Position numbers and translations under genes: made by a program
Shown here: positions 1 to 64,000 of the stretch, piece after piece
Position numbering within the stretch: the stretch's first letter is position 1
How the letters are laid out: each line of letters begins with the position of its first letter
The notes under the pieces: generated by a model
The model's input: the letters and a program-made list of their open reading frames with translations, nothing else
Databases searched by the model: none
What the model was told of the DNA's origin: nothing
DNA from: Symbiodinium natans
Lineage: Eukaryota; Sar; Dinophyceae; Suessiales; Symbiodiniaceae
Reading direction: 5' to 3'
NCBI GenBank assembly: GCA_905221605.1
Contig: CAJNDS010002760.1
Span: forward strand, 37,501 to 101,500
Length of the DNA: 64,000 nucleotides

Positions 1-557
1 ACTCTTAATTCAAGATTTCTTTTGAAGCAGCTGGTTCCAAGCCGAACTTTGCGAGACTTTATGTCCCCACCCTCGCCGTGACCTCACCACCATACCCAAC
101 AATTCTGCAACCCTAAACCCTAAACCCTAAACCCTAAACCCTAAACCCTAAACCCTAAACCCTAAACCCTCACTACCGCCGCCGATTGTGGTATGAACAT
201 ATGAAGCAGGGTTTATATTACTGTTACTGGTGAGTGCATATAATGTTCGTTTTTAATATTGGTGAGTGTGCATATAGGGTGTCCATTTGGTGATACAAGA
301 AATATATACCCAACTTCATATCGGGATTCCAAGAGGATGCTTGGCTCTCAGAAGGTTAGATCTTAGGGTTTAGGCGGTTGGTAGGTTCCAGGGTAGGCAA
401 CGTGTTGGGATAAGAGGGCCTCTAGGGTTTCTTTTTTGAGCTTATGAGACAACCCTGTCAGCCCTGAGCCCTATAAGCCCCCTAAACCCTAAACCCTAAG
501 CCCTAAACCCTAAACCTTAAACCTTAAACCCTAAACCCTAAACCCTAAACCCTAAAG

Positions 558-634
558 GCGATGGCAGCTGACTTCCTGACGAAGCACAAGCCACAGAGCT
601 ATCCGGAAGTCAGGGACTCCCAGCAGTGCGCTGG
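558..634 (+). CDS. candidate exon, unknown protein
   Basis: An open island between a C-type array (acceptor-like AAAG at 554-557) and a G-type array. It reads AMAADFLTKHKPQSYPEVRD. There is no clear GT donor; a GA donor at CTG|GAGGG is possible. Codons look protein-like but the island is short. Confidence 0.4.
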
Positions 635-1092
635 AGGGTTTAGAGCTTATAGGGTTTAGGGTTTAGGGTTTTGGGTTTAGGGTTTAGGGTTTAGGTTTTA
701 GGGTTAGGGTGTAAAGGGCTTTTGGGGTTTATGAGGTTTATAGGGTTTAGGGTTAGGGTTTATAGGGTTTATATGGCTTGTAGGGTTTATAGGGCTTCTG
801 GGTCTTATAGGGCTTGTAGGCCGGTTTATGAGGTTTATTGGGTTTTGCGGTTAGGGTTTAGAGGGTTTGCAGGGTTTATTGGGTGTATAAGGTTTATAGG
901 GTTTAGGGATAGGGTTTGTAGGGTGTATAGCCTGTATAGGGTGTGGGTGTATCAGGCTCATAGGGCATGTTTTGGGGTTTGGGCTTCAGGTTGCGAGTCT
1001 TGGGGACAGGAGACAGGGATGACTGAAGGGCGGCGATTCCCTAGACTAGACGGAAAGGGGTAGGTCTTCATGTGTGTTTTGTTTTTGTTTTC

Positions 1093-1118
1093 TTTGGGGG
1101 GGGGGGGGGGGGGGGGGG
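1093..1118. repeat. poly-G tract
   Basis: About 26 consecutive G after a T-rich stretch. Similar homopolymer G or C tracts recur at 12770-12786, 23607-23621, 23773-23790, 25351-25366, 42090-42104 and 48570-48583. Their length in the assembly is unreliable. Confidence 0.9.
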
Positions 1119-1443
1119 CTCTCTGTGTATTTTCCGGTTCAAGGAAACTCTACTCTCTTGGCCTCTTGCAGGGGTATGACCGACAACTTTAGAGACTCTT
1201 GCACCCTCAGGTGCTGAAGACTGCCCCACGACCCAGAATCCCCACACCTTCTATGCCCTAAAACAACCCTACACTCTAAACCCCTAGAAACCCGCAAAAA
1301 ACCCTTCTGAGCCCTTGCCAAGAACAGGTTGCGGGCCTTTGCATCTAAGTCTCTGCCAATTAGGACCCCCTTGAGGGCTCAACTCACTGAGTGTTTCGGG
1401 TTTTGGGCTGCGAGTTCAGGATGTTGGGGTTTTTTCTGGGACC

Positions 1444-1449
<6 letters not shown>

Positions 1450-1481
<32 letters not shown>
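1450..1481. repeat. (GA)n microsatellite
   Basis: About 16 GA units. The 60-90 aa frames that run through it (RERERE on plus, SLSLSL on minus) come from the repeat. Confidence 0.95.
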
Positions 1482-1483
<2 letters not shown>

Positions 1484-1818
1484 AAAGGAGATAGAGATCA
1501 GAGAAATTTGAGGTGGGTCTGTTGGACCCAATCAGTTCATATCCCCCGCAATCATCTCTGCAATATCTACTGTTGTCAACGCGCGAAGATCCGTTTAAGG
1601 CACAATGTTCATCCTCTGCCAACAGAAAGAAGCATGCTTGAACATCATCCCTAAACCCTAAACCCTATACTCTAAACCCTATACCCTAAACCCTAAACCC
1701 CCGTAAGTCCTGCAAACATCTTCCCAGGTCAGCGGCGACAGTAACTGGGCCCCGTGTGGCCCTTGGAGTCACGTTTCCATGCCCTATAGCCCGATAGCCC
1801 TAGACCCTAAACCCTAAA

Positions 1819-1942
1819 CTAGCACCGGGAGTAGGCACTTTTTTCCCCCCCCCTTTTTTTAGGGCTTAGGTTCCCTTATGATTAATCCCCTTAAAACCAA
1901 AAAGGGTACCCTTTTTATTCCTAGGCGACTCCCGAGTGTAGT
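1819..1942. mobile_element. MITE-like element, family C copy 1
   Basis: It starts near CTAGCACCGGGAGTAGG and ends near CCTAGGCGACTCCCGAGTGTAG, which are inverted-repeat ends with a poly-T/poly-C interior. Sister copies at 13735, 32916, 51492 and 59461 share the termini and the core AACCAAAAAGGG. No coding capacity. Confidence 0.75.
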
Positions 1943-1997
1943 AACCCCTGATCCACACAACCGCAGGTTTCCGAACCCCCGACATCATGACACGTGG

Positions 1998-2090
1998 GCA
2001 CTTCTCTAAATAATGGTCCATTTTGCGGTTACGAATATTGGCGGCCCCTATGACTTAGGGTAAACTGACCATATCTCACCAACCGTAGAT
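1998..2090. mobile_element. MITE-like element, family G copy 1
   Basis: Core CACTTCTCTAAATAATGGTCC followed by GGCGGCCCCT, related to copies at 11478, 30728, 37804, 49638 and 58198. The rest of 1943-2400 holds a family O element (about 2190-2285) and otherwise nothing recognisable. Confidence 0.6.
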
Positions 2091-2189
2091 TCGCGCATCA
2101 ACGCTTTGTGTGGGTGGGGACGGCAAGTGGGCTTGGTTCCGTGGTGAGGGAGCGGGGTTCTAGCTAGCTTCTGGGGTATAGCTTATGTG

Positions 2190-2285
2190 GGTTGGTGGTC
2201 TCTTTAAGTAGGGTTCCTGTTTCACAGGGCATATCTAGGGGCCATGTTCCGGGATAAGGGCAACAGATAAAGAGGCCACCTGGTT
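2190..2285. mobile_element. MITE-like element, family O copy 1
   Basis: It carries GGTGGTCTCTTTAAG at one end and AACAGATAAAGAGGCCACC at the other. The second block recurs in reverse complement at 42597-42624. Confidence 0.6.
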
Positions 2286-2503
2286 TAGGGTGTGGTTTTA
2301 AAGGTTTGGAGCTTATGGGGACTTGTGGGGTTCAGGGTTGCCTAATGTCGCCCAAGGAAGAAGCTAGTTCCGATTTCTGAGGTCGTCAATCCCCCCAACC
2401 TGTACCTAACACGATTATTTTTGTATAGAATGCAGGTATCCAGTAACAGAACTGTACCAAATAAGGAAAGAGACCACAATTGGGGTCTAGGTATTCTTGG
2501 CAG

Positions 2504-62325: not shown

Positions 62326-62337
62326 CCCTAGCCCCAG

Positions 62338-62377
62338 TCCCACGAAGCCTCAGCACTGCCTTGGAGACCAAACGAAG
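62338..62377 (+). CDS. exon (set 62 kb, exon 3)
   Basis: Acceptor CCTAGCCCCAG, 12 nt after the MITE end. In phase 0: SHEASALPWRPNE. Possible GC donor GAAG|GCTTTAGG. Confidence 0.65.
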
Positions 62378-62656
62378 GCTTTAGGGTTTCGGGCTTTGGG
62401 TTTAGGGTTTAAAAAGTGCAGGGTTTAGGGTTTAATGCTAGAATCCCTGGAGGGCCCTGTGCTCAAGCATAGTTTTCAAGAACGATCCTTTGGGGGCATA
62501 TTGCCCTATATGGCATGTATTTTGGGGCTGTCGTGCTTTGGGCGACAGGTCTATGAGTCTATGAAGTTTTTGTTATAGGGTCTTAAGTGGCAATGTGCTT
62601 ATCACAACGTAACAAGTCAAACACCACACTTGGTGCTCCAGCGCCTGTTCTCCTAG

Positions 62657-62784
62657 ATGCGTACCGGCCTGGCCGGCCGAAACGGCCGGGCCCCAAGTTA
62701 GCCAGGCCAAGCTGGCCGCCTGTTTCAACCAAGCGCGCCGAACTGCAGCAGGATGCGCAGCGCGTGCCTCACGGCGCATGTGCT
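62657..62784 (+). CDS. exon, Pro/Arg/Lys-rich
   Basis: Acceptor GCCTGTTCTCCTAG, donor GTGCT|GTCCTAAACC that leads into a C-type array. 42 codons: AYRPGRPKRPGPKLARPSWP, PVSTKRAELQQDAQRVPHGA, CA. The 68-codon minus frame over the same bases is its shadow. Confidence 0.67.
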
Positions 62785-62905
62785 GTCCTAAACCCTAGCC
62801 CTAAACCCTAAATTGGCCCTAAACCCTAACTCCCTCAGCCCTGGATCATATAGACGTCCCTATAATTACAAGCTCCAAAACCCGAAGCCCTCTACACAAC
62901 CGAAG

Positions 62906-62942
62906 CGCTTTCTGGTGGCACATGCGCAAAACAGAGCCATGG
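62906..62942 (+). CDS. candidate short exon
   Basis: Acceptor ACAACCGAAG, donor GCCATGG|GTTCCC. Frame RFLVAHAQNRAM; another frame (AFWWHMRKTEPW) is open. Confidence 0.4.
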
Positions 62943-63181
62943 GTTCCCCTCCTACCCCTTCTATACTACCCCGACTAGATTCCCCCCATAATTAAGGCCT
63001 GTGTAGGCCAATCTAGGCATAATTAAGCCGATTTACGGTTAAACCCAGGTGGGGGTAGCCCTAAACCCTCAACCCTCAACCCTAAACCCTAAACCCTAAA
63101 CCCCAAACCCAGTATGGAGGGGGGGTAGTAGGGAAACCCACGAAAGAATGGTGACCAAAGCGGCGCTGCCGCCCCCCGCAG

Positions 63182-63221
63182 CCTGAATGAACAGCAGAGA
63201 TTCTTGCTGACCCAAGCATAG
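63182..63221 (+). CDS. candidate terminal exon
   Basis: Acceptor GCCGCCCCCCGCAG; LNEQQRFLLTQA then TAG. Confidence 0.45.
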
Positions 63222-63409
63222 GGCTCAGCCTTTGTACGGGGATTATGGTCGAGGGTTGAGGGTTTTAGGGTTCAGGGTTTACGCTTTACATAGGGTTTGG
63301 GGTTTAGGGTTAGTCTTTGTGATGCTTGGGTTCAGGGCTTTAGGATGATATACCCTACGAAGCAAGGGTATGATGCACAGAAAAGCCCTAAGACCAAAAC
63401 CCTAAACCC

Positions 63410-63527
63410 TAAACCCTGATCTTCGGGTTCATCTGGTCCCCGTGGATGAATGTGTGCATTAGTTTTCATCACGTACGAAGTCTGCAGGCGGAACTGCTGT
63501 CCCAGAAAGAGTTCACAAGAATTGCAA
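63410..63527 (+). CDS. candidate exon, membrane segment then helix
   Basis: After a C-type array: LIFGFIWSPWMNVCISFHHV then RSLQAELLSQKEFTRIA; donor TTGCAA|GTAGTAGGG. An internal acceptor TACGAAG is possible. Confidence 0.47.
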
Positions 63528-63685
63528 GTAGTAGGGCTTAGGGTTTAGGGTTTAGGGTTTAGGGTTTAGGGTTTAGGGTTTAGGGTTTAGGGTTTAGGAT
63601 TTGTCGCGGTTAGGTAGCTAATTACTTTCAAACAGCAAAGGGCATTTGACATGGGTTGTTGCTTAACACAACTTGTCATTCAGTG

Positions 63686-63806
63686 TGCGGCCTCGGGGAC
63701 TAAACGAACCCTATAATTGGGACAAAATATTAGACCCAATGATACTGCAAGCCCTACGAGGGCATATGGACCATAAACCCTTTTATTCCATTTAGTCCTC
63801 GAGGAC
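63686..63806. mobile_element. MITE-like element adjoining an exon
   Basis: Inverted ends CCTCGGGGACTAAA and TTTAGTCCTCGAGG (one mismatch). The 3' arm supplies the acceptor TTTAG for the next exon. Confidence 0.75.
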
Positions 63807-63851
63807 GGCGAAGGCCGGTATGGCGGGAGGGGGCTGAGAAGCCTGAATCTC
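63796..63851 (+). CDS. candidate exon, partly MITE-derived
   Basis: Acceptor CCATTTAG in the MITE arm, donor AATCTC|GTTTAGG. Frame LEDGEGRYGGRGLRSLNL; the first four codons come from the MITE end. Confidence 0.47.
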
Positions 63852-64000
63852 GTTTAGGTGTTTAAGGTTTTGGGCTTGCATGTTCAGGGTTTAGGGGTTG
63901 TAAGATGCGATTAGCTGTGTTTGGGCCGTGGTTTGTACCGACCGAGACACCCCAATGGCAGTTCCATCTCGAGGGTGTTTGTTGTTCGCCTAAGCGTCAG

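Follow-up and report, generated by a model that had tools for sequence, protein, structure and literature searches.

Telomere-type repeat arrays lie in a preferred orientation around short exons in a 64-kb stretch of Symbiodinium natans DNA

Results

Eight short exons of a Nup98 gene

The stretch of DNA analysed here (assembly GCA_905221605.1, contig CAJNDS010002760.1, positions 37,501 to 101,500 of the forward strand; hereafter the window, 64,000 nt with 51% G+C and no N) comes from Symbiodinium natans and is densely interspersed with tandem telomere-type arrays that read on the forward strand either as (TTTAGGG)n (G-type) or as the complement (CCCTAAA)n (C-type). It also contains one gene proven by homology, a Nup98 gene, whose exons show how these arrays are placed, and all counts given below refer to this single window and this single gene. 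Eight exons on the + strand between 53920 and 61840, joined in order, spell the Nup98 autopeptidase domain (Pfam PF04096, E 3.2e-30; 105.7 bits against a curated cut-off of 28.4; profile positions 12-143 of 148). The same product matches 23 sequences of the PDB, all of Nup98, Nup145 or Nup116 type (best E 5.9e-24, residues 6-133 of 133). The exons measure 27-78 bp and are listed here with a slash marking the splice site:

53920..53967, + strand: exon A (MSIQPDLGRMSSAELR), donor CAG/GTCC
55127..55160, + strand: exon B (HVQDLTISREG), 3' edge uncertain, probable GC donor GGA/GCTG
56181..56234, + strand: exon C (VGTITFEGETDVTGLDFE), GA donor GAG/GAGA
56752..56778, + strand: exon D (TIVRLEVGE, 27 bp), GC donor GAG/GCCA
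57683..57745, + strand: exon E (VLVYPQPRTKPEVGVGLNKAQ), 3' edge uncertain, probably GC donor; exception to the polarity (G-type array upstream)
59322..59369, + strand: exon F (VTMYQCWPPNGSILAQ), GA donor CAG/GATC
60502..60579, + strand: exon G (beginning DKEQQEEYKRRIKLMTEEKKAKRG), 3' edge and join to H uncertain, 60573 used in counts
61783..61840, + strand: last exon H (FLDYDCNTGIWKFAVEHF, stop); exception to the polarity (G-type arrays on both sides)

A weak Nucleoporin2 match (E 0.13) gave the first lead to Nup98, and the exons were first spotted in a list of gaps between arrays, a starting point that could favour a rule of array polarity. Despite this origin, no stretch of the domain is lacking, and it was the domain itself that revealed exons E and H, which lie outside the pattern. 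The 3' edges of exons B, E and G as well as the join between G and H are tentative, though shifts of a few bases would leave the types of the neighbouring arrays unchanged.

An AG/G shared at exon/intron boundaries is general in dinoflagellates. Acceptors of the Nup98 gene read AG/G at seven of the eight exons, with donors of the GT (A), GA (C and F), GC (D) and probably GC (B and E) type. Dinoflagellates combine GT, GC and GA donors with AGG acceptors according to excerpts of two papers (PMC10666404, table; PMC11453091), and from the splice sites we infer that the window is nuclear, rich in introns and derived from a dinoflagellate or one of its close relatives. Two further observations concern the gene itself. 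The domain ends at 61783-61840 in HF followed by a stop, so that no Nup96 part follows the usual cleavage site. In addition, the same six bases GCGAGG lie across both boundaries of intron DE (56778 and 57683), as a target duplication might leave them; this is a single case, and the intron has no telomere-type inverted matches at its ends.

C-type arrays before and G-type arrays after most Nup98 exons

The window has 292 exact telomere-type runs with a length of 14 bp or more, and allowing one mismatch per unit yields 252 arrays (the degenerate set). The arrays that bracket the Nup98 exons are:

Exon A: C-type 53871..53908 upstream, G-type 53977..54106 downstream
Exon B: C-type 55033..55105 upstream, G-type 55198..55245 downstream
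Exon C: C-type 56019..56176 upstream, G-type 56269..56409 downstream
Exon D: C-type 56653..56728 upstream, G-type 56822..56890 downstream
Exon F: C-type 59268..59298 upstream, G-type 59416..59462 downstream
Exon G: C-type 60381..60486 upstream, G-type 60587..60665 downstream

In the degenerate set, these six exons thus have a C-type array as their closest upstream neighbour, 4-23 nt from the acceptor, and a G-type array as their closest downstream neighbour, 9-46 nt from the donor. The exceptions are exon E, with a G-type array 53 nt upstream and a C-type array 184 nt downstream, and exon H, with G-type arrays on both sides at 54 and 74 nt. The combination of an upstream C-type and a downstream G-type array, both within 60 nt, is therefore found at 6/8 exons compared to 6.0% when exons of the same lengths are placed at random outside arrays across the window (p 1.2e-6 in a binomial test that treats exons of one gene as independent), and the same score remains significant against a null of 9.9% obtained within the gene (p 2.1e-5). 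Scored one side at a time at the same distance, a C-type array precedes six of the eight exons (null 15%) and a G-type array follows six (null 18%), while a C-type array follows none. Arrays of any type lie within 60 nt on both sides of 6/8 exons against 14% under the null. The arrays hence crowd the Nup98 exons on both sides and do so in one orientation.

This asymmetry is also seen in the sequence left after masking the arrays. The first up to 45 nt of the seven introns hold 12 GGG and 2 CCC runs, whereas the last up to 45 nt before the eight exons hold 3 GGG runs (all before exon H) and 9 CCC runs (Fisher p 0.004 for the contrast between intron starts and ends). The C-run-rich intron end extends to exon E, which has no C-type array just upstream. 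A gradient of array purity was not supported: the halves of C-type arrays that face exons are purer (p 0.04), but control arrays behave alike (p 0.04), and G-type arrays show no such difference (p 0.73).

Array polarity across the window

An initial annotation of this DNA, made from its letters, had proposed that C-type arrays usually lie before and G-type arrays after candidate exons. The succession of a C-type and then a G-type array (C-then-G) reads alike from either strand, so that a test of this proposal does not depend on which strand is coding. In the degenerate set, 49 of the 118 gaps of 60-160 bp between neighbouring arrays are C-then-G compared to 29.5 expected, and none of 20,000 label shuffles reached this number (maximum 46). 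The exact set, composed for neighbour counts of arrays of at least 14 bp merged at 60 bp, gives 40 C-then-G neighbours less than 200 bp apart (mean 23.1 and maximum 38 in 10,000 shuffles) and 23 G-then-C neighbours. C-then-G gaps of 40-300 bp have a median of 100.5 bp (interquartile range 84-125), and the arrays that flank C-then-G gaps are longer than those at other gap types (median 82 bp vs 46-57 bp).

Together with the Nup98 exons, these shuffles bear out the word "usually", though "always" would be wrong. At four places singled out by the initial annotation, exact C-type runs end at 12621 (continuing in degenerate form to 12632), 42727, 56175 and 60479, and exact G-type runs begin at 12721, 42816, 56277 and 60589. 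Of the two exceptions it had admitted, the one at 24649 is real, with G-type sequence at 24580-24607 and C-type sequence from 24790. Near 38283, the exact set has a C-type array upstream (37882-37907) and a G-type array downstream (38383-38400), and the degenerate set has a gap at 38055-38240 with G-type arrays on either side.

Coding signal above threshold on the + strand is found in 22/49 C-then-G gaps of 60-160 bp and in 7/69 gaps of other types. Part of this signal is composition, because it is also raised in C-then-G gaps on the minus strand (14/49 vs 7/69) and in the reversed sequence (15/49 vs 9/69); even so, the difference between forward and reversed signal still favours C-then-G gaps (p 0.001). 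Forty-three of these 49 gaps contain no proven exon. One C-then-G gap inside intron AB holds an open reading frame (54615-54682) that was dropped from the Nup98 chain, since it has no AG acceptor and exon B fills its place; this gap is apparently free of exons. Two other gaps hold candidate exons without any family match:

42732..42814, + strand: candidate exon of the initial annotation, acceptor CAG, donor CAG/GTTAGGG, arrays at both edges
29622..29699, + strand: candidate exon AQLKNLATQFDRAQRFDRMWGDPWIE between a C-type and a G-type array

The stretch 17180-21464 holds only one short exact telomere-type array (19978-20001). Inside this array-poor stretch lies a tandem repeat with a period of about 395 bp (17898-19258).

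Complementary intron ends and predicted RNA folds

The initial annotation had further concluded that intron ends are reverse complements of each other and could pair as a long stem that brings the splice sites together. The first part holds for four of the seven Nup98 introns, in which the 100-nt stretches at the two ends share a telomere-type inverted match of at least 18 nt (AB 19, BC 31, CD 48 and FG 18 nt), and fails for DE, EF and GH. However, all arrays are mutually complementary, and this property of the intron ends is therefore real but generic.

A stem that specifically joins the two ends of each intron found no support. When all downstream 150-nt flanks were compared with all upstream ones, the true intron partner formed the strongest duplex in 0/7 introns; duplex strength tracks array length, and for intron GH the duplex (-59.8 kcal/mol) does not surpass the average of shuffled flanks (-69.9 kcal/mol). 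Similarity in variant repeat units reaches 0.168 for putative intron partners (48 pairs), 0.185 for partners across an exon (49 pairs) and 0.181 for a skip-one control (47 pairs), compared to 0.115 for random opposite arrays. Arrays beside C-then-G gaps hence resemble one another without partner specificity. The lengths of putative partner arrays are uncorrelated (rho 0.06, p 0.69).

Minimum-energy folds without a distance limit were predicted for regions 53870-56950 and 59200-60800, with the 14 largest pairing groups listed for the first region; all these predictions take no account of proteins or G-quadruplexes. C-type arrays are predicted to pair with G-type arrays over exons C and G (127 and 72 bp), and two more pairings would close around exon C, or around C together with D (59 and 66 bp). 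In introns AB, BC and FG, the first G-type arrays pair with C-type arrays further inside the same intron (99, 34 and 37 bp), and pairing of the first G-type with the last C-type array of any intron is absent among the matches listed for the two regions. With a limit of 300 nt between paired bases, the predicted hairpins span exons A, C and D (26, 95 and 39 bp) as well as the rejected reading frame at 54615-54682 (50 bp), and intron CD gains 20 bp of end-to-end pairing. Taken as a whole, the initial interpretation is partly supported.

Other features of the window

A Pfam scan of the + strand from 1 to about 60000 in three frames, with stops read as X, found no credible domain, because the exons are too short to be recognized frame by frame. 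Its best match was POP1_C (E 0.0064, below the cut-off of this family) on a lysine run near 2.6-2.75 kb. An AGA repeat at 2633-2754 (40.7 copies) yields lysine runs and weak chance matches to Pfam. Exons picked by hand from other regions gave no credible family (best E 0.16), and ab initio gene models of the window are too noisy to rely on. No Rfam family at gathering scores and no tRNA (scanned with a bacterial-code setting) were found in the window, and viral contigs scanned for the exact pattern of a C-array, 60-100 bp and a G-array gave no match.

A palindromic element of about 100 bp that resembles miniature inverted-repeat transposable elements occurs at 9062-9163, 13359-13462, 22896-22996 and 29973-30078 with about 73-85% identity, and two of these copies (9062-9163 and 22896-22996) align with their own reverse complements. 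Around 28900-29400, a GGT/GGC-rich repeat creates overlapping long frames rich in Gly/Trp or Pro/His, which is probably a minisatellite and not a gene.

Discussion

A proposed role in splicing for the polar tracts at intron ends

At six of the eight proven exons, introns start with a (TTTAGGG)n tract rich in G runs and end with a (CCCTAAA)n tract rich in C runs, each 4-46 nt from the splice site. We tentatively favour the explanation that arrays are retained close to exons when their orientation is one that splicing can exploit, although we hold it with less than even confidence. C-type arrays contain only the dinucleotides AA, AC, CC, CT and TA, so that the unit, read as RNA, is without AG, GT, GC and GA and would present no false splice site ahead of a true AG/G acceptor; it would also supply a C-rich, CUAAAC-containing tract where the branch site would lie. 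G-type arrays consist of AG, GG, GT, TA and TT and offer an AG/G every 7 nt, which would be harmless right after a donor but harmful ahead of an acceptor.

On the donor side, G runs after donors belong to the known intronic splicing elements, and such G-run/UAGGG elements are associated with hnRNP A/B and F/H proteins. G-type arrays would resemble them in placing dense G triplets and UAGGGU, which fits the hnRNP A1 site UAGGGA/U given in excerpts of PMC9634572, right after donors, and could thereby help to define the weak donors of microexons. Unlike these elements, they form telomere-type arrays of considerable length, mirrored by C-rich ones upstream of acceptors. Under the reading that these tracts are splice-compatible, the ends of an intron are complementary since either tract is the complement of the other, and a stem may form between them without being the selected feature. 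The polarity and closeness of arrays at proven exons, the G and C runs outside the arrays, the greater length of arrays beside C-then-G gaps and the absence of partner-specific covariation count in favour of this explanation, and overall the pattern more likely reflects intron marking or intron growth than a custom RNA hairpin.

Several points weigh against the splicing explanation. Its basis is one proven gene, in which exons E and H lack the arrangement, and the exclusion of AG covers only the acceptor side, so that the donor side needs another cause. Array-free intron ends may hold decayed remnants of arrays, so that the contrast in G and C runs is not fully independent of the arrays themselves. 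Sites of the UAGGG type moreover act in both directions in the excerpts of PMC9634572, where several promote skipping or repress the exon (PKM, MLCK) and one promotes inclusion (IRF-3). Finally, an inserted unit with a G-type left end and a C-type right end would give the same polarity without any function. A bolder extension would see in the arrays of this lineage a splicing code made from telomere repeats: throughout the genome, the (CCCTAAA)n tract ahead of a tiny exon with a weak donor and the (TTTAGGG)n tract behind it would together flag that exon to the spliceosome. This extension seems to us rather unlikely.

Alternative explanations

The main rival dispenses with function altogether and supposes that introns were enlarged by units with TTTAGGG at their left and CCCTAAA at their right end, which above all would leave exons between C-type and G-type arrays; such units could be introner-like elements with telomere-type terminal inverted repeats or two break ends that were extended by telomerase and rejoined. 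We consider this somewhat unlikely but a serious contender, since the two-sided polarity would come automatically. Array order alternates in 113/173 neighbour pairs of the exact set (about 87 expected by hand calculation), and the remnants between arrays and splice sites are short, as though insertions had split small introns internally. There are also precedents, and the initial annotation was mistaken in knowing of no intron class defined by such a pair: dinoflagellate introns with inverted repeats at both ends have been described and read as mobile introners (PMC7789003, PMC10666404), and introners of Symbiodinium microadriaticum have terminal inverted repeats (PMC9860276), all according to excerpts of these papers.

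The introners of Amoebophrya and Prorocentrum cordatum, as far as the same excerpts describe them, share with the introns studied here the setting in dinoflagellate-type genes, the complementary ends of the same intron and the predicted hairpins (PMC7789003, PMC10666404). In Amoebophrya, the inverted repeats measure 8-20 nt and are complementary between intron ends (PMC7789003). Introners are recognized by such repeats within 30 bases of both intron ends, by 3-5 nt direct repeats at exon/intron boundaries and by families of similar introns (PMC10666404, after PMC7789003). In contrast, the repeat at hand is a telomere-type tandem array that lies too far inside the intron or is too degenerate for this 30-nt distance: inverted repeats of at least 8 nt occur within 30 nt of both ends in 0/7 Nup98 introns, within 60 nt in 3/7 and within 100 nt in 5/7 (four of them telomere-type), and we therefore do not file any of the seven as introner elements. 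The arrays also sit at variable distances inside intron ends and not at the splice sites. Masked self-comparison by BLAST, limited to this window, shows tandem repeats and dispersed repeats shorter than 170 bp but no intron-long families, and direct G-to-C junctions of at most 15 bp are no commoner than C-to-G junctions (7 vs 6), contrary to what inserted units or telomerase-healed breaks would suggest. Insertion polarity and the splice-compatible tracts that we favour can both hold, one as the origin of the arrays and the other as the reason for their retention.

More improbable, in our judgement, is that the (UUUAGGG)n start of an intron pairs with the (CCCUAAA)n end of the same intron and joins the splice sites, as in the AC/GT introns of fish. 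The strong end complementarity of four introns, the 20 bp gained by intron CD under the 300-nt limit and the fact that variants of putative partners are more alike than those of random arrays (p 0.0005) fit this idea, which has precedents in excerpts of PMC7404189 and PMC7789003. However, the true partner is never the strongest, partner similarity does not exceed the skip-one control, array lengths are uncorrelated, the unrestricted folds list no pairing of first G-type and last C-type arrays, and introns DE, EF and GH have no telomere-type pairing at their ends at all. The AC/GT-tract introns of fish and lamprey (Lin et al., Genome Res., via excerpts of PMC7404189) likewise carry complementary simple repeats in the same intron, but their repeat units differ and their effect was tested with minigenes (PMC7404189), whereas in our case any effect would be a predicted one and the pairing is not partner-specific.

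The arrays could instead pair across the exon and favour its skipping or a circular RNA, which we regard as very unlikely. This would be the nearest available pairing (a loop of about 100 nt), and it is what the minimum-energy folds predict for exons C and G and, with the 300-nt limit, for A, C and D. Yet all eight Nup98 exons are needed to spell one conserved domain, so that regular skipping is improbable, and a hairpin over an apparently constitutive exon should hinder its inclusion. Chance or an artefact of reading is hardly credible and for this window already refuted by the label shuffles and the homology-proven exons, even though ab initio exon calls are noisy (above threshold, the + strand has 48 and the minus strand 32, vs 24 and 21 in the reversed sequence).

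Comparable repeats and meaning for dinoflagellate introns

Beyond introns, the window recalls the telomere-like repeat bands of Eimeria tenella (excerpts of PMC9131526), in which TTTAGGG/CCCTAAA repeats are likewise densely interspersed among genes. Those bands are also CAG-rich (PMC9131526); the tandem repeat table of the window includes, among 150 of its 351 rows, at least one GCA array (19386-19434). The GC and GA donors of the window point to dinoflagellates and speak against Eimeria, which its telomere-like repeats had suggested as a source. Literature on telomere-type arrays polarised around exons was absent among the matches listed, which is weak evidence of absence given that the search covered only a minority of subscription papers. 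What is unusual here is the telomere-type nature of the arrays together with their polarity and their closeness around microexons.

Within this window the verdict on the observation is firm, and the mechanism favoured here is tentative. Dinoflagellates have to locate exons of 30-70 bp that carry donors of the GT, GC or GA type between introns of kilobases. For this task, a repeated, polar tract to either side of an exon would be a concrete cue that can be tested. If the pattern reflects only the polarity of insertions, it tells how these introns grew, and if the bracketing of exons were true genome-wide, telomere repeats would have been turned into a splicing code.

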